A stretch of 35,105 nt of DNA from Bacteroidota bacterium. Its GTDB lineage: Bacteria; Bacteroidota; Bacteroidia; Flavobacteriales_F; PHOS-HE28. This document shows, piece by piece, positions 11,008 through 34,371 of this stretch (its first letter is position 1; each line of letters starts with the position of its first letter). The stretch lies in the NCBI GenBank assembly GCA_018267055.1, contig JAFDZF010000193.1, positions 1-35,105 on the forward strand. The letters run 5' to 3'. Position numbers and translations under genes: made by a program. The notes under the pieces were generated by a model. It was not told the origin of the DNA, made no database searches, and saw only the letters and a program-made list of their open reading frames with translations.

Positions 11008-14000
11008 GTGCGTCCCTGGATCCGAACCGCGCTCCTCCTGCTGGCCCTGTCCGTGCTGACGCCCCTGCGGGCCCAGTTCTACAATGGCAGCGAACAGGAG
11101 TTCGGCAAGAACCGTGTGCAGTACAAGGAATTCCTCTGGCAGTACTACCGCTTCCCCGAGATCGAGACCTACTTCTACAAGGGCGGGCGCGACCTGGCCC
11201 GCTACGTCTCCATCAGCGGCATGCGCCACAAGAAGGAGATGGAGAAGTTCTTCGACTACACCATCGACGACCGCATCCAGTTCGTGGTGTACAACTCGCT
11301 GAGCGACTTCCGCCAGAGCAACATCGGCGTCACGGGCGACGAGCAGTACAACGTGGGCGGGGTCACCCGCATCGTGGGCACCAAGGTGTTCGTGTACAAT
11401 GAGGGCGACCACGTACTGCTGGACCGCCAGGTGCGCTCCGGCGTGGCGCAGCTGGTGCTGGACCAGATGATGTTCGGCGGCAACTGGCGCGAGGTGTTGA
11501 AGAACAGCACGCTGATGAACCTGCCGGCCTGGTACACCAAGGGCCTAGTGGGCTACTGCGCCGGTCCCTGGGATGCCCGCTCGGAGGACCGCATCCGCGA
11601 CGGGGTGCTCAGCGGCCGCTTCCAGAAGTTCAACCGCCTGGAAGGCGACGATGCCGCGCTGGCCGGGCAGGCCATCTGGACCTACGTGGCCGATGTCTAC
11701 GGGCCCAGCGTGATCCCCAACATCCTGTACATGACCCGCGTGAGCCGCAACCCTGAGAGCGGCTTCCTCTACGTGCTGGGCGTATCGCTGAAGACCCTGA
11801 CGCAGGAGGCCCTGGACCATTACCGCGGCCGGTTCTCCGAAGAGGAGCGCACCCGGGAGGACGTGAAGCTGGAGGAGCTGCCGGTGAAGACCCGCCGCAC
11901 CCGCACCTATTCGCAGTTCAAGCTGAGCCCCGACGGCCGCTACGCCGCGTGGGTGAGCAATGAGCTGGGGCAGTACAAGGTGTGGCTCTACGACCGTGCG
12001 GAGAAGAAGGTGAAGAAGATCGCCAAGGGCGAGAAGAAGATCAACCGCATCATCGACGAGAGCTATCCCGTGCTGGCCTGGCACCCCACCGGGCGCGCCC
12101 TCACCTGGACCAGCGAGCGCAAAGGGGCCCTGCTGCTCAATACCTACACGCTGGACGACCGGAAGGTCCTCCGCAAGCCGGTGTTCCTGCTGGAGAAGGT
12201 GCTGAGCATGGCCTACAGCGATGACGGGCAGCACATGGTGTTCAGCGGCGTGCGTGAAGGGCGCACCGACCTCTACCTGTACTACACCGTGGGCAACCGC
12301 CAGGAGCAGTTGACCGACGACCAGTTCGACGACCTGGACCCCGCCTTCGTCAACAACGGCCGGTCCATCATCTTCAGCAGCGACCGCACCGACGATACCC
12401 TGCGCGCCAACGCCGAAGTGGCCTGGGTGAACGGGAAGAAGGACCTCTTCCTGTACGACCTCGCTTCGCGGTCCCCACTGCTCACGCGCCTCTCCGACAC
12501 GCCCGGGGTGGACGAGCGCCAGCCCGCCCAGTACGACAGCGCCAGCTACACCTACCTGAGCGATGCGCAGCACCTGGTGGACCGCTGGGCGGCCCGGTAC
12601 GACAGCGCGGTGAGCGCGGTGGACACCGTCATCCACTACCGCTACTTCACCACCGAGCAGCGCCTCACCGACTACAAGCGCGGGATCCTGGAGCAGAACG
12701 TGGTGGCCAAGCGGGGCTGGTACGCGCAGCTGATGTACATCAACGGCCGCTACCGCTTCTTCACCGGCCGCACCAGCGACGCGCGCTCCGCGCAGGAGGC
12801 CGAGCCCCGTCCCGGCGTGCCGGGGCATCAGGAAAGCGCCACCGGCGGGGCCGTCACCGATGACATGAGCACCGTGGTGAAGGTGGACCCCTGGCAGCCG
12901 CGCGACACCGCCGACGCCGTGGACATCCACAACTACCGGTTCGCCGATGAAGCACCCGGTACCACGTCCCCCGCGGGCTCCGCGGAAGCCCGGCCCGAGG
13001 TGCCCGTGATCGGCCTGCCCGCGCCGCCGGTGGACACCGCGCTGGTGACGTCGCTCACGTTCCCCGAGCAGCGCAACTACAACGTGAACTTCGCCACCGA
13101 CGAAGTGCTCACCCAGCTGGACAACAGCTACGACTCGCAGTTCTACCAGCCCCTCACCGGCCCAGGCACCCTGAACCCCGGCCTCAGCGGCCTGATGCGC
13201 ATGGCCGCCAGCGACCTCTTCGAGGACTACAAGATCGTGGGCGGCTTCCGGCTGGCGCTGGACCTGAACAACAACACCTACCTGCTCAAGTTCGCCGACC
13301 TGCGCAAGCGGCTCGACAAGGAGATCATCCTGCAGCGGCAGGGCATCCAGGGGCTCAGCGACCTCGGCGTGGTGAAGCTGCACACCCACCAGGCCACCTA
13401 TCGCCTCACCTATCCCTTCGACGAGCTCACCTGCCTGCGCGGCTCGGTCTTCTACCGCAACGACCGCTACGTGATGCAGAGCATCGACCAGTTCACCCTG
13501 GCCGTGCCGAACGCCTACGACCAGACCGTGGGCGCCCGCCTGGAGCTGGTGTACGACAGCAGCATCCCGCGCGGGCTCAACCTCTACACCGGCTGGAAGG
13601 CGAAGATCTTCGGCGAGTACTACAAGCAGCCCGACGGCGAGCGCACCGACATGCAGGTGCTGGGCCTGGACGTCCGGCATTCGCTGCGCATCCACCGCGA
13701 CCTCATCTGGGTGAACCGCCTGGCGGGCTCCACCTCGCTCGGCAGTCGCAAGGTGCTCTTCTTCATGGGCGGCGTGGACAACTGGCTCTTCGCCAAGGTG
13801 GACAACAGCGTGCCCATCGATTTCTCACAGAACTATTTCTACCAGTCGCTGGCGGTGCCCCTGCGCGGCTTCTACTACAACGCCCGCAACGGCAACTCCT
13901 TCGCGGTGCTGAACTCCGAGCTGCGCGTGCCCATCTTCCGCTACCTGCTGAACCGGCCCATCCGCAGCGATTTCTTCCAGAACTTCCAAGTGGTGGCCTT

Positions 14001-22826: not shown

Positions 22827-23081
22827 TCAGGCCTCCTCCACCGAGAAGCTGTACTTCTCCATGATCAGGTTGGCGAGGAGCTTCTTGCAGGCCTCGTCCA
22901 CCTTGGCCTCCGCGGCCTTCTTGTCCTTCGCCTCCAGCTGCAGGGTGATGTGCTTGCCGATGCGCACGCCGGTGATCTCGGGCAGGCCGAGATTGCTCAT
23001 GCTGCCGGTGACCGCCTTGCCCTGGGGATCGAGCAGGTTATCGTGGGGCATCACATCGATGGAGGCGCGGAAGGTCTTCAT
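22827..23081 (-). CDS. purS: Phosphoribosylformylglycinamidine synthase subunit PurS
   Basis: PurS is the small bridging subunit of the three-part PurS/PurQ/PurL FGAM synthase, which makes the amidine intermediate of purine synthesis. The 84-residue product has the family length and pattern: an initial strand (MKTFRASIDVMPH), then LLDPQGKAVTGSMSNLGLPE, the conserved VRIGKHITLQLEA strand and a C-terminal helix (AKVDEACKKLLANLIMEKYSF). Start is the ATG at 23081; an in-frame start at 23114 would add 11 unrelated residues and precede the promoter-like CATCTTTG. No purQ or purL is adjacent. It faces lptB with 24 nt between stops and lies 51 nt downstream of pssA on the same strand. Confidence 0.9.
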   Translation of the reverse strand: MKTFRASIDVMPHDNLLDPQGKAVTGSMSNLGLPEITGVRIGKHITLQLEAKDKKAAEAKVDEACKKLLANLIMEKYSFSVEEA

Positions 23082-23085
23082 GGCG

Positions 23086-23093
23086 CAAAGATG
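23086..23093 (-). promoter_or_regulatory. Possible -7 box directly upstream of purS
   Basis: The minus strand reads CATCTTTG, one base off TAnnTTTG, only 4 nt before the purS ATG. If used, the mRNA would be leaderless or nearly so. Confidence 0.4.
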
Positions 23094-30187: not shown

Positions 30188-30195
30188 TACTTTCG
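30188..30195 (+). promoter_or_regulatory. Predicted -7 box of lnt
   Basis: TACTTTCG, one base off TAnnTTTG, begins 3 nt after the stop of the C25 peptidase gene and ends 6 nt before the lnt ATG. It implies a separate, leaderless or near-leaderless lnt transcript. Confidence 0.5.
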
Positions 30196-30201
30196 GCCCG
30201 C

Positions 30202-31896
30202 ATGCGCCTGCGCACCTTCCTGCTCCTTGCCTCGCTGGCCACGGGCGCGCTTTGGGCGCTGGCCTGGCCGGCCATCGGCGGCCTCACCCCGCTGGCGTTC
30301 ATCGCCTGGGTGCCCCTGCTGCTCGCGGAGGAGCGTTTCTCCCGCGCCGCGCCGTCCGAGCGTCCGCGCCGCTTCATGCGCTATGTGTTCCTCGCGCTCA
30401 CGGTGTGGAACGTGGCCACCACCTGGTGGCTGTTCTGTGTGAGCGAGCCCTTGACCACGCGCCTCTTCACCCTTATCGGTCCCAACGTCGGCAACGTCCT
30501 GCTGATGTCCCTGCCCTGGGTGGTGATGCGCGCGGTGCGCCGCTGGCGCGGCGGACGCTGGGCCCGTTGGGCGCTGGTGCTCTGCTGGACGGCCTTCGAG
30601 CGTTTCCACATGCATTGGGACCTGAGCTGGCCCTGGCTCACCCTGGGGAACGTCTTCGCGGAGCATCCGGCCTGGGTGCAGTGGTACGAGGTCACCGGCA
30701 CGCTCGGCGGCACGCTCTGGATCTGGCTGGTCTCCCTGGCGGTGTTCGACCTGGCACGGCCGCGGATGGTGGAAGGCCGGTGGGCTGCGCGCGCCGGCAT
30801 CACGCGCGCATCGCTCCTGGCCGCCGCCGTGATCGTTCTTCCGCTGTTCGCGTCGTTCGTGCGCTATGCGACGTTCACCGAGAAGGGCGATCCGGTGGAG
30901 GTGGTGGTGGTGCAGCCCAACATCGATCCCTACAACGAGAAGTTCGGCGTCGTGGACCCGCTGGAGCAGCTGGACCGGATGCTCGCGCAGGCCGCCCAGC
31001 TGATCACGCCGTCCACGGCCCTGGTGGTGTTGCCCGAGACCGCGCTCCAGGAGGCGTCCACGTTGAGCGACGACCAGGGCCGGCTCGTGTTCCATGGCCT
31101 GTGGGAGAACGACCTCGGGGCATCGCGCAGCATGGAGCGCATCCGGGCATTCCTGAAGGCGCACCCCGGCACCTCGCTCATCGCGGGCATGTCGTCCACC
31201 ATGCTCTACCCGGCCGGTGCGAAGGTGCCCTACACCGCCCGCCCGCTGGAAGGGACGGGCCGCGGCTTCGACGCGTTCAACGCAGCGGTGCTGGTGCGGC
31301 CCGACGGTTCCTTCGAGCCTTACCACAAATCCAAACTGGTGCCCGGCGTGGAGCTCATGCCCTTCGAGCAGGTGCTGGGCCCCCTCACGTCCTTCGCCAT
31401 CGACCTGGGCGGCACCACCGGCAGCCTGGGCACCCAGGAGGAACGGGAAGTGATGCGCACCGCGGACGGCCGCCTGCGGCTGGCACCGGTGATCTGCTAT
31501 GAAAGCATCTATGGCGACCATGTCGCGGCGCACGTACGCAATGGGGCCACCCTCATCGCCATCATGACGAACGACGGCTGGTGGTCCGACTCGCCGGGCT
31601 ACAAGCAGCACCTGGCCTATGGGCGGCTCCGTGCCGTGGAAACGCGTCGCTGCATCGCCCGCTCGGCCAACACCGGCATCTCCGGCTTCATCGATCAGCG
31701 TGGCGACCTCCACCAGTCGACCGGCTGGTGGGTGGACGCCACGGAGCGCGCCACCCTGCTGGCCCGCGGCGACCTCACCTTCTTCGTCCGCTATGGGGAC
31801 CTGATCGGGATGGCGGCGGAGGCTTTGGCCGCCCTGCTGATCGTGGTGTTGCTGGTGCGGTGGCCGGTGCGCCTGCTCGCGCGACGCCGGGCGTGA
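30202..31896 (+). CDS. lnt: Apolipoprotein N-acyltransferase
   Basis: Lnt adds the third acyl chain to the N-terminal cysteine of lipoproteins at the periplasmic face of the inner membrane. The 564-residue protein has about six N-terminal membrane segments (to about residue 220), a nitrilase-like periplasmic domain starting at VEVVVVQPNIDPYNEKF, and a last hydrophobic helix (EALAALLIVVLLVRWPVRLL). The catalytic triad is visible: Glu279 in VVLPETALQEA, Lys376 in YHKSKLVPGVELMPFE and Cys432 in APVICYESIYGDHV. The conserved IMTNDGWWSDSPGYKQHLAY and RRCIARSANTGISGFID follow. The length is slightly above the usual 500-540. The frame is open upstream, but the ATG at 30202 follows a TACTTTCG box and begins the first membrane helix. 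hemH starts 23 nt after the stop. Confidence 0.95.
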   Translation: MRLRTFLLLASLATGALWALAWPAIGGLTPLAFIAWVPLLLAEERFSRAAPSERPRRFMRYVFLALTVWNVATTWWLFCVSEPLTTRLFTLIGPNVGNVLLMSLPWVVMRAVRRWRGGRWARWALVLCWTAFERFHMHWDLSWPWLTLGNVFAEHPAWVQWYEVTGTLGGTLWIWLVSLAVFDLARPRMVEGRWAARAGITRASLLAAAVIVLPLFASFVRYATFTEKGDPVEVVVVQPNIDPYNEKFGVVDPLEQLDRMLAQAAQLITPSTALVVLPETALQEASTLSDDQGRLVFHGLWENDLGASRSMERIRAFLKAHPGTSLIAGMSSTMLYPAGAKVPYTARPLEGTGRGFDAFNAAVLVRPDGSFEPYHKSKLVPGVELMPFEQVLGPLTSFAIDLGGTTGSLGTQEEREVMRTADGRLRLAPVICYESIYGDHVAAHVRNGATLIAIMTNDGWWSDSPGYKQHLAYGRLRAVETRRCIARSANTGISGFIDQRGDLHQSTGWWVDATERATLLARGDLTFFVRYGDLIGMAAEALAALLIVVLLVRWPVRLLARRRA

Positions 31897-31903
31897 GGAC
31901 CCG

Positions 31904-31911
31904 TAGTTTCG
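31904..31911 (+). promoter_or_regulatory. Predicted -7 box of hemH
   Basis: TAGTTTCG, one base off TAnnTTTG, lies between the lnt stop and the hemH ATG and ends 8 nt before that ATG, the same arrangement as at lnt. Confidence 0.5.
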
Positions 31912-31919
31912 CGCCCCGC

Positions 31920-32975
31920 ATGGCCTCCGTATCCCGTCCCCGCACCGGTGTCCTCCTGCTCAACGTGGGCACACCGGACAGCCCCCGCGTGCCGGATGTC
32001 CGCCGCTACCTGGCGCAGTTCCTGGGCGATGGCCGCGTGATCGATCTGCCACCCGTACCGCGCAAGCTGCTGGTCAATGGGATCATCGTGCCGTTCCGGG
32101 CGCCGAAGAGCGCCAAGGCCTACGCCAAGCTGTGGACGGAGCAGGGGTCGCCGCTCATCGTGCATGGCACGGCCCTGCGGGACGGATTGCAGCGGCTGTT
32201 GGGCGAGGCCTACCGTGTGGCGCTCGCCATGCGGTACCAGCATCCGTCCATCGCGGCGGGGCTGGAGGAGCTGCGCAAGGCCGGTGTGCAGGAACTCCTG
32301 CTGGTGCCGCTCTATCCCCAGTATGCCTCTTCGTCGACCGGTTCGTCGGTGGAGGAGGTGTTCCGCCAGCTGGCCGCATGGAACGACATCCCGCCGGTGA
32401 AGGTGCTTCCGCCGTTCCATGCCGAGGAAGGCTATCTGCAGGCCTTCACGGAGCGCATCGCCGCTTGCGCACCCACGACGTACGATCACGTCCTGTTCAG
32501 CTTCCACGGCCTCCCGGAGCGCCACATCCAACGCTCCCACACGCCGGGTTCCGGCATGTTGCAACGGGACCTTCCGGCCACATCGATCGATGGTTGCCCC
32601 TGTGAGACCGCCGATCACGATGCGCATCCCACCTGCTACAAGGCCCAGTGCCATGCCACGGCCCGCGCCCTGGCGGCCCGCGTCGGCCTGCGCGCAGGTA
32701 CGTGGTCGGTCGGGTTCCAGTCCCGCCTCGACCAGCGATGGATCAAGCCGTTCTCGGACCAGCTGATCGAGGAGCTGGCCCGCAACGGATGCCGCCGCTT
32801 GCTGGTGGTGAGCCCCGCTTTCGTGGCGGATTGCCTGGAAACGGTGGTCGAGATCGGCGACGAGTACGCCGAGCTGTTCCGGGAGCATGGCGGGCAGGAA
32901 CTGCGGCTGGTGGAAAGCCTCAATGCCTCCCCCACTTGGGTGGACGCGCTCGCCGGCCTGTGCCGGCGGATGTGA
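31920..32975 (+). CDS. hemH: Ferrochelatase
   Basis: HemH inserts iron into a porphyrin at the end of haem synthesis. The 351-residue protein has RTGVLLLNVGTPDSPRVPDV (8-27), VLFSFHGLPERHIQRSH with the metal-site His196, WSVGFQSRLDQRWIKP and VVSPAFVADCLETVVEIGDE with the proton-accepting Glu307. A cysteine cluster, Cys226, Cys228, Cys239 and Cys244, lies within GCPCETADHDAHPTCYKAQC; equivalent internal cysteines bind a [2Fe-2S] cluster in some bacterial ferrochelatases, so a cluster is possible here. Start is ATG at 31920, after a TAGTTTCG box; upstream in-frame sequence overlaps lnt. Whether the substrate is protoporphyrin IX or coproporphyrin III cannot be told from this window. A perfect-stem terminator follows. 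Confidence 0.95.
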   Translation: MASVSRPRTGVLLLNVGTPDSPRVPDVRRYLAQFLGDGRVIDLPPVPRKLLVNGIIVPFRAPKSAKAYAKLWTEQGSPLIVHGTALRDGLQRLLGEAYRVALAMRYQHPSIAAGLEELRKAGVQELLLVPLYPQYASSSTGSSVEEVFRQLAAWNDIPPVKVLPPFHAEEGYLQAFTERIAACAPTTYDHVLFSFHGLPERHIQRSHTPGSGMLQRDLPATSIDGCPCETADHDAHPTCYKAQCHATARALAARVGLRAGTWSVGFQSRLDQRWIKPFSDQLIEELARNGCRRLLVVSPAFVADCLETVVEIGDEYAELFREHGGQELRLVESLNASPTWVDALAGLCRRM

Positions 32976-32989
32976 AGAGTGGATGAAGA

Positions 32990-33011
32990 AGGGCCGCCCG
33001 GAGGCGGCCCT
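32990..33011. terminator. Bidirectional intrinsic terminator-like hairpin between hemH and the T9SS cargo gene
   Basis: A perfect 9-bp stem, AGGGCCGCC (32990-32998) and GGCGGCCCT (33003-33011), encloses a CGGA loop in the 59-nt gap between two convergent stop codons. On the minus strand the stem is followed by TCTTCATCC, a moderately T-rich tail; on the plus strand the tail is poor. It can serve both genes. Confidence 0.75.
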
Positions 33012-33034
33012 GTCCATGTTCCGGATCGAGGCGG

Positions 33035-34333
33035 TCACCGTAGCATCACGCGCCGCGTCATCACGTTGGTGGTGTTCTGCAATTGCACCACGTACACGCC
33101 AGTGGCGATGGTGCCCTTGTTCACCTTCAAGGTGGTGGCGCCGGTGTTGATCACCTGGCTCGGACGCACGGTCATCACTTTGCCCTGGGCATCCAAGAGG
33201 GACAGGTCGTACATGCCGTCGAGCGTGGAGCTCACCACCACGTTCAGGTCATCGCCGTCGTCCCAGGCGTTCACGATCTCGATGCCGTCCGGCGCGCCGC
33301 AGCCGGCCGCGATCACGTCGAAGGTCGCGGTGGTGCCATCGAGGTCCGTCTGGCTGAGGCGATAGTAGGCGAGGCCCTTGCCGTCCTGGTCGATGAAGCT
33401 GTAGTGCAGCATGCCGCTGTGATTGCCGGCCCCCTCCACCTGGCCGATCTCCGTCCACGTAGCGGCATCGGCGCTCTTCTCGATGGTGAAATGGTCGTTG
33501 TCCTGCTCCGAGGCTGTGGTCCAGGCCAATTCCACCGTGCTGCCCTTGCAGGTCCCGTTCCAGGCGACCAACTGGATGGGGAGCGGCGTGGTCACGCTGG
33601 CGAGCGTCCACGAACGGAAGAAATCACCCGCTGCGATGGCCGCGCCTGCGACCTGACCGGCGCTCGCCGTGCCTTGCGGCATCATGTCACCCCATTGCTG
33701 GGTGGCGGTCTTGAACCGTTGCGCACCGATCGTCGCGGCAGTGGCGGTGTTGGGGGCGACCAGCTCGGCCGGATCGTAGCTGAACGTGAGGGTGACCGCT
33801 GGAAGGGTGGTGTAGTTGAAGGTCGCCTGCGAGGGATCGATGATCCAGAAACGGTCCACCGCATTGGCGGAATTGTTCACGGCCCCCGTGGGGAAATCGT
33901 TCATGTGCGTCACATCGCTCGGCTTGTACAGCAGGTTGTTCCAGGCATTGGCCGAGGTGGTGGTGCCCTTCCAGTTGTAGGTGGCGAAGACCATCGAGGA
34001 CGTGGCGGCCACGGCGCCTGCGGTGGTCTTTGTAACCACCAAGGGGATCTTCACGTTGGAACGGGTGGTGAAGGGGATGGTGTACGTGCCGGTGGTGGCC
34101 GCCTGGGTCCACCGGATGCGGTTCTTCTCCCGTTCGCTCACGATATTGCCCTGCCCCGCGGGGGTGGTGGTGATGGCGTCCGTCGCCGGGTTGTCGACCA
34201 CGATATAGGTCGTGGCCGTGGACGTCGTATCGAATACCACATAGGGATTGCCGTTCAGGACCAGCCGTGCTCCTTGCCCATGGAGGCAAGTGGTCATAAT
34301 GGATGCGAGAAGAACGGGTATGAGTTTCTTCAT
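33035..34333 (-). CDS. Secreted T9SS cargo protein of unknown function, 432 aa
   Basis: The signal peptide MKKLIPVLLASIMTTCLHGQ is followed by a Thr/Ala/Asn-rich region of about 230 residues (LVLNGNPYVVFDTTSTATTY, NKIRWTQ-like NRIRWTQAATTGTYTIPF) that I cannot place. Then comes a common Bacteroidota module: LPIQLVAWNGTCKGSTVELA, WTTASEQDNDHFTIEKSADA and YYRLSQTDLDGTTATFDVI (about 255-345). The last 75 or so residues (NAWDDGDDLNVVVSSTLDG to GVYVVQLQNTTNVMTRRVML) form a T9SS type A C-terminal signal ending in basic residues. It should cross the inner membrane by Sec and the outer membrane by T9SS. The first half may be a repeat-free adhesin or enzyme-less surface domain; I do not name it. Its promoter is the best in the window. 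Confidence 0.85.
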   Translation of the reverse strand: MKKLIPVLLASIMTTCLHGQGARLVLNGNPYVVFDTTSTATTYIVVDNPATDAITTTPAGQGNIVSEREKNRIRWTQAATTGTYTIPFTTRSNVKIPLVVTKTTAGAVAATSSMVFATYNWKGTTTSANAWNNLLYKPSDVTHMNDFPTGAVNNSANAVDRFWIIDPSQATFNYTTLPAVTLTFSYDPAELVAPNTATAATIGAQRFKTATQQWGDMMPQGTASAGQVAGAAIAAGDFFRSWTLASVTTPLPIQLVAWNGTCKGSTVELAWTTASEQDNDHFTIEKSADAATWTEIGQVEGAGNHSGMLHYSFIDQDGKGLAYYRLSQTDLDGTTATFDVIAAGCGAPDGIEIVNAWDDGDDLNVVVSSTLDGMYDLSLLDAQGKVMTVRPSQVINTGATTLKVNKGTIATGVYVVQLQNTTNVMTRRVMLR

Positions 34334-34341
34334 GGTATAAC

Positions 34342-34371
34342 CAAATTTAGGTCATACCCGTCCCGAATCAA
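34342..34371 (-). promoter_or_regulatory. Complete Bacteroidota promoter of the T9SS cargo gene
   Basis: On the minus strand a TTG (34371-34369) is followed by exactly 19 nt and then TAAATTTG (34349-34342), a full match to the -33/-7 architecture (TTG, 19-21 nt, TAnnTTTG). The box ends 8 nt before the ATG at 34333, so the transcript would be leaderless or have a leader of a few bases. Confidence 0.75.

Follow-up and report, generated by a model that had tools for sequence, protein, structure and literature searches.

Does transcription of some bacterial genes begin at the start codon itself? This question was raised by a 35,105-nt stretch of DNA (the window; positions 1 to 35,105, forward strand, of contig JAFDZF010000193.1, assembly GCA_018267055.1; G000:C103 in our numbering) from a Bacteroidota bacterium of the lineage PHOS-HE28, in which boxes resembling the -7 promoter element of Bacteroidota stand within a few nucleotides of four start codons. 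A first-pass annotation had placed such boxes before lnt, hemH, a predicted type IX secretion system (T9SS) cargo gene, and purS, with gaps of 6, 8, 8, and 4 nt, respectively, and each box was found where it had been placed. Judging from the sequence, we consider it probable (roughly 0.78) that the boxes are -7 elements of the primary sigma factor, so near to the start that transcripts would begin at the AUG or within about 4 nt of it. Beyond these four genes, many transcripts of this GC-rich bacterium probably start on or very near the AUG, a known mode of initiation whose frequency here may be unusually high.

The lnt box (TACTTTCG, 30188..30195, + strand, matrix score 9.2) lies within the 17-nt spacer that separates lnt from the preceding long open reading frame (C25 in the first-pass annotation), which we take to be porU. 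The lnt gene (30202..31896, +), encoding apolipoprotein N-acyltransferase, starts at the ATG at 30202 and matches the Pfam families LNT_N and CN_hydrolase. The hemH box (TAGTTTCG, 31904..31911, +, score 7.8) lies within the 23-nt lnt-hemH spacer, ahead of the ATG at 31920 of the ferrochelatase gene (31920..32975, +). On the other strand, the cargo box (TAAATTTG, 34342..34349, -, score 8.4) precedes the ATG at 34333 of the predicted cargo gene (33035..34333, -), and a weak -7-like box (CATCTTTG, 23086..23093, -, score 5.2) precedes the ATG at 23081 of purS (22827..23081, -). Thus, all four genes start with ATG. Pfam searches confirmed Lnt, ferrochelatase, and PurS (PurS residue 6 aligned with profile position 2); the cargo protein gave a Por_Secre_tail match with an E value of 0.00065 only, below the curated cutoff. 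The consensus TAnnTTYG, named in the first-pass annotation, held at lnt, hemH, and the cargo gene, but at purS the first T is replaced by C. Compared with the -7 element TAnnTTTG, the cargo box is exact, and the lnt and hemH boxes carry C for the third T of TTTG. The hemH box also has G at its third position, which is reported to be almost absent in Flavobacterium johnsoniae promoters (PMC6847099; published statements here and below are taken from excerpts of the cited papers).

The distance between box and start codon was examined across a sample of the genome. The sample consisted of 61 stretches including the window (847,549 bases, or 22% of the 3.86-Mb assembly of 203 contigs; 67% G+C in a 313-kb part) with 698 genes, of which 645 were usable after exclusion of those that lay <100 nt from the end of a stretch or ran off a contig. 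Genes were called with a simple codon-usage finder whose start choice is blind to upstream sequence and motif. Samples from four relatives in the genus (589 genes) were added to give a pooled set of 1234 genes. A strict box was defined as TAnnTTYG, the gap as the number of nucleotides between box and start codon, and a near box as one with a gap of 3 to 8. A weight matrix was trained solely on distal boxes, 15 to 90 nt from the start, and applied with cutoffs of ≥5 for the histogram and ≥6 for spacer classes.

The enrichment at 4 to 8 nt that the first-pass annotation had proposed to look for was present as a strong peak with its maximum at 4 to 5 nt. In our sample, 29 of the 645 genes had a strict near box, against 0.42 expected from the motif rate in the sample, with counts of 2, 6, 7, 4, 5, and 5 at gaps 3 to 8; a second cluster, of 24 matches, was found at gaps 20 to 23. 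The C variant TAnnTTCG was itself enriched at near gaps (23 versus 0.26 expected). The four relatives contributed 30 near boxes (0.40 expected; maximum at 4 to 7), so that the pooled count was 59 in 1234 genes. Dinucleotide shuffling (100 rounds) gave a mean of 1.33 and a maximum of 5, and none of 8408 internal in-frame ATGs was preceded by a strict near box. Among 120 arrangements of the box letters, the real one ranked first, whereas the others averaged 2.2; the next three (24, 22, and 18) all share TAnnTTTG with the real motif. Matrix hits in the pooled set numbered 5, 45, 33, 20, 17, 13, and 7 at gaps 3 to 9, with two in total at gaps 0 to 2, and the excess above the distal baseline was approximately 123 at gaps 3 to 8, 36 at 9 to 15, and 134 at 16 to 45. 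The matrix peak at 4 to 5 nt coincides with the box-to-transcription start site (TSS) spacing of 4 to 5 nt published for F. johnsoniae (PMC6847099).

The gene finder made errors, since it shortened the open reading frame preceding lnt and set the start of the cargo gene 36 nt downstream, at the ATG at 34297. The cargo box was consequently tallied as distal, and only lnt and hemH of the four window genes are among the 59. Such errors would blur a distance peak rather than create one. For 24 of 28 tested near genes in our sample, a Pfam family was matched, with the best domain ≤8 residues from the called start in 8 of them; one of the 29 near genes (L008:12151-12513) was left out of this test.

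The near box of lnt was conserved. Matches to lnt were found in 43 of the 45 genomes of the genus, and the best 30 loci (own included, as in the purS comparison below) were compared, with proteins down to about 50% identity. A strict box preceded the lnt ATG at a gap of 3 to 8 in 18 of the 30 loci and at a gap of 3 to 14 in 22; the gap was 4 to 10 in 21 of these 22 loci and 14 in the remaining one, while the spacer between the porU stop codon and the lnt ATG ranged from 17 to 283 nt. The C-terminus of porU was found at 28 of the 30 loci, mostly ≤300 nt upstream of lnt. In a separate test with 54 reciprocal-best orthologue pairs, a box at a gap of 3 to 11 was present in both members of 3 pairs, in our genome only in 1, in the relative only in 1, and in neither member of 49. 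The box was thus kept in 3 of 4 pairs with an own box versus 1 of 50 others (P = 0.0006). At L162, the available stretch starts shortly upstream of lnt. The lnt match at L153 (G016:C402:571-2238) contains one in-frame TGA and lies approximately 1.2 kb from porU, with no near box.

The sequence itself shows the boxes, their non-random distance, their resemblance to distal boxes, the AUG bias, the mutual exclusion of near and distal boxes, and the conservation at lnt; which sigma factor acts, where exactly the 5' end lies, and that translation is leaderless are inferred from these. The -7 box of an ordinary Bacteroidota-type primary-sigma promoter would sit against the start codon, and RNA polymerase would start on the A of the AUG or no more than about four bases away. 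Translation of these messages would follow the leaderless route, without Shine-Dalgarno (SD) pairing. This architecture would need only about 12 nt upstream of the gene, which fits short spacers and would give lnt and hemH their own promoters inside an apparent operon.

Three other explanations were weighed against this one. That the boxes are chance matches chosen by eye is very improbable, given 59 near boxes against a shuffle mean of 1.3, none at the internal ATGs, and the conservation at lnt; chance is conceivable for purS alone, whose box, with its first T missing, scores only 5.2 with the matrix. Only slightly less remote is the idea that the TTYG element beside the AUG serves translation rather than transcription, on messages that start further upstream. 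Genes in tight spacers could indeed be read from an upstream promoter, and a first-position C or G is better tolerated in near boxes than in distal ones. A translation signal would still be required in tight operons, yet near boxes (score ≥6) were depleted there, with 6 in 294 same-strand spacers of ≤15 nt. They were richest in same-strand spacers of 16 to 50 nt, the class that contains lnt and hemH (24 of 151, versus 50 of 745 divergent or wider-spaced genes; P = 0.0005). This richness supports the earlier suggestion that internal promoters serve tightly packed same-strand genes. In addition, near and distal boxes tended to exclude each other: among divergent or wider-spaced genes, a distal box was found in 1 of 50 with a near box versus 167 of 695 others (P = 6e-5). 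Near and distal boxes also had similar letters at the free positions. The start codon was ATG in 59 of 59 strict near genes of the pooled set, and in 82 of 84 matrix-near genes versus 843 of 1015 genes without boxes (P = 7e-5). Taken together, the near/far exclusion, the spacer pattern, the AUG bias, and the peak are better explained by promoters firing at the AUG than by a translation element. Mutual exclusion of the box and an A-rich motif was given no weight, since the two cover the same nucleotides.

The remaining explanation, unlikely although less so than the other two, keeps the boxes as true promoters but places the TSS elsewhere, or the start codon downstream, so that ordinary short leaders would result. 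The gap of 8 at hemH and the cargo gene lies off the 4- to 5-nt peak, three relatives have lnt gaps of 10 and one of 14, and hemH relatives show longer distances. Against this stands the genus-wide peak at 4 to 5 nt, which declines toward 9 to 15. Moreover, the lnt matches of 12 relatives in the genus (one partial) align from residue 1, and HemH residue 8 corresponds to position 1 of the Pfam Ferrochelatase profile; a match from so near the N-terminus leaves little room for a later start. Promoters firing at or beside the AUG remain the reading that we favour.

Several observations weigh against it. The use of ATG did not differ significantly between near genes (82 of 84) and distal-box genes (123 of 135; P = 0.09), and the depletion of near boxes in tight operons is partly forced, because in such spacers a box would run into the coding sequence of the gene upstream. 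By eye, no letters were enriched at the place of a -33 motif (TTTG) in 29 near and 88 distal boxes; in F. johnsoniae this element is reported to be weak (PMC6847099). Eight of the 30 lnt loci had no strict box at 3 to 14 nt under a rule that considered ATG starts only. Among them, lnt is >1.1 kb from porU in two, and two others gave no match to porU; the spacer measures 10 nt in one, the box stands 20 nt away in another, the box letters include an extra T in a third, and the last has a box before GTG. In this last locus (L157), TATTTTCG stands 5 nt before the GTG by eye and was missed by the ATG-only rule, and the locus was tallied as boxless. Both boxes lay at 3 to 8 nt in only one of the three conserved orthologue pairs. 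The short distance at hemH was not conserved, since three other hemH loci in the genus have their boxes further upstream; these are TTTCG-type boxes, two of them TAGTTTCG. The purS box is not strict, and 9 of 30 purS loci are boxless, with the preceding frame seemingly reaching purS, by eye. Finally, mapped or predicted TSSs in other Bacteroidota gave low values: 5.5% leaderless in Flavobacterium psychrophilum, 3.7% of leaders below 10 nt in Bacteroides thetaiotaomicron, and 13% of leaders ≤10 nt long in F. johnsoniae (PMC6847099).

The claim that transcription starts on or beside the ATG fared differently at the four genes: strongly supported at lnt, well at hemH and the cargo gene, and weakly at purS. 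A leaderless transcript, or one with a leader of 1 to 4 nt, is the best reading of the sequence at lnt, is likely at hemH and the cargo gene, and is doubtful at purS. The term leaderless would be exact only for gaps of 4 to 5; with the 4- to 5-nt spacing, the proposed leader would be 1 to 2 nt at lnt and 3 to 4 nt at hemH and the cargo gene. At purS, [CG]AnnTTTG was counted by eye at a gap of 4 to 5 in 8 of 30 loci of the genus, own included. Relaxed CA and GA forms of the box were enriched at gaps 3 to 8 (20 and 30 in 1234 genes, compared with 17 and 18 in a 5.5-fold-wider control zone), and the purS box, lacking the first T, is thus a weak candidate whose leaderless status is uncertain. Upstream of purS in L176-L179, L187, L192, and L193, a CCTTTGCG...GCGGTGAA-like stretch was seen, which by eye resembles a dispersed intergenic repeat.

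The hemH gene was tried as a comparative anchor and dropped, as a match was found in only 4 of the 45 genomes of the genus. Among the 30 near-complete genomes, only our own has a match, and hemH adjoins lnt in all four. The best 80 of 137 named hits showed 34 to 42% identity, and their titles were mostly from Proteobacteria, with a few from Chloroflexi and none from Bacteroidota; these hits were left out of the comparison. The hemH gene may have been acquired or may have diverged strongly.

The earlier observation that SD-like sequences are missing before the four genes was borne out: none was seen by eye at a usable distance, and none was enriched over the 1234 genes. The GAGGA ahead of hemH shares bases with the lnt stop codon and is upstream of the box. 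At positions -20 to -5, compared with a control position, SD words were not enriched in the 1234 genes (GGAGG, 14 versus 24; AGGAG, 14 versus 26; AAGGA, 18 versus 19; GGAGAT, 4 versus 3). Bacteroidota are reported to initiate mostly without SD pairing, with upstream adenines and low structure as known aids. Distal-box genes had A in 33% at both -13 and -12, which agrees with an upstream A motif reported in F. johnsoniae (PMC9976891).

The order contains only our own genus among the genomes compared, and the outgroups were two members of the class that belong to other families (46% and 40% G+C). Strict near-box matches numbered 8 among 129 genes in one and 7 among 133 in the other, and boxes at gaps 9 to 60 numbered 14 and 22. 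The near share of all boxes at gaps 3 to 60 was therefore 8/22 and 7/29 in the outgroups and 59/214 in the genus; one of the 8 near starts in outgroup G136 is GTG. Both outgroups being similar, a near-box share special to our genus was not supported, and promoters of this near-start kind may be common to Bacteroidia in general. The base at position 7 of the box shifted with base composition. The C:T ratio was 71:38 in our sample (gaps 3 to 52); over 100 nt, the four relatives gave 16:12, 16:13, 10:18, and 9:14, and the outgroups gave 3:19 and 3:26 (gaps 3 to 8 plus 9 to 60).

The boxes resemble the primary-sigma (sigma-ABfr/sigma-A) promoters with the element TAnnTTTG (TAHHTTTG in F. johnsoniae), with which they share all fixed letters but one. 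The box-to-TSS spacing published for F. johnsoniae matches our peak; a clear -33 motif is not reported there, and none was visible by eye here. They differ from the known Bacteroidota element in that TTCG outnumbers TTTG in our sample and G occurs at the third position, in 28% of near and 16% of distal boxes. In the leaderless genes described by Zheng et al. in 2011 (PMC3160421), a box likewise stands at TSS distance from the start codon, but that box is TANNNT, a TA-like element roughly 10 bp ahead of the start, and here it is the Bacteroidota -7 element. According to the excerpts of that survey, "atypical" genes are numerous in several clades, Bacteroidetes among them. A minority of messages with no leader or a very short one is likewise known from F. 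psychrophilum, B. thetaiotaomicron, and F. johnsoniae; judged by the matrix excess in the sequence, the share here looks larger than in these species, but the two outgroups give a similar strict share. Further sources drawn on, also in excerpt, were PMC9723704, PMC7366714, PMC8710568, PMC10783764, and PMC6107228. Among the matches listed in our literature searches (titles and beginnings of abstracts; limited coverage), none mapped a high leaderless share in a Bacteroidota lineage, and a search of limited coverage found none on the TTCG variant.

The contribution of leaderless genes in Bacteroidota is disputed, since mapped values range from a few per cent to 13% in the three species, whereas Nakagawa et al. 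in 2017 refer to earlier reports that the leaderless fraction is high in Bacteroidetes (PMC5397173, in excerpt). Our lineage may be richer in leaderless genes, or the mapped values may have been lowered by start annotation or conditions. If the proposal is true, certain lineages may use leaderless starts frequently, and internal promoters would escape operon maps that rely solely on gene spacing. Leaderless genes as such have already been reported in Bacteroidota; the new details are the preference for TAnnTTCG over TAnnTTTG and the anti-SD core UCUCC described below. We would propose only tentatively, as a view that may well be wrong, that in this genus leaderless initiation is a major mode (about one-third of start-proximal promoters), with a C-variant box, a drift of the anti-SD to UCUCC, a lasting abandonment of SD pairing, and apparent operons split by compact leaderless promoters.

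The 3' end of the 16S rRNA in the genus is GGAACATCTCC (GGAATATCTCC in one), with the anti-SD core UCUCC in 13 of 13 genes read to the end (L258, L267, and L295-L305, all with TCTCC). The 28 other 16S loci cut out from the class carry ACCTCC, with the core CCTCC. No 16S match was found in our own assembly, and its anti-SD is therefore deduced from the relatives in the genus. Chryseobacterium and relatives are reported to have another variant, UCUCA, accompanied by a matching change before rpsU, and in many Flavobacteriales rpsU is reported to differ from almost every other gene in carrying a strong SD (PMC9976891, in excerpt). In the single rpsU leader read here (G033; L225, ~11951-12109, - strand), an SD-like word was not seen by eye; this leader is A-rich, and 24 nt separate its box (TATATTTG) from the ATG. 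By count, tyrosine 54 is kept in the bS21 protein of G033. At position -1, C was found in 58 to 77% of the pooled genus genes in each of the six classes profiled.

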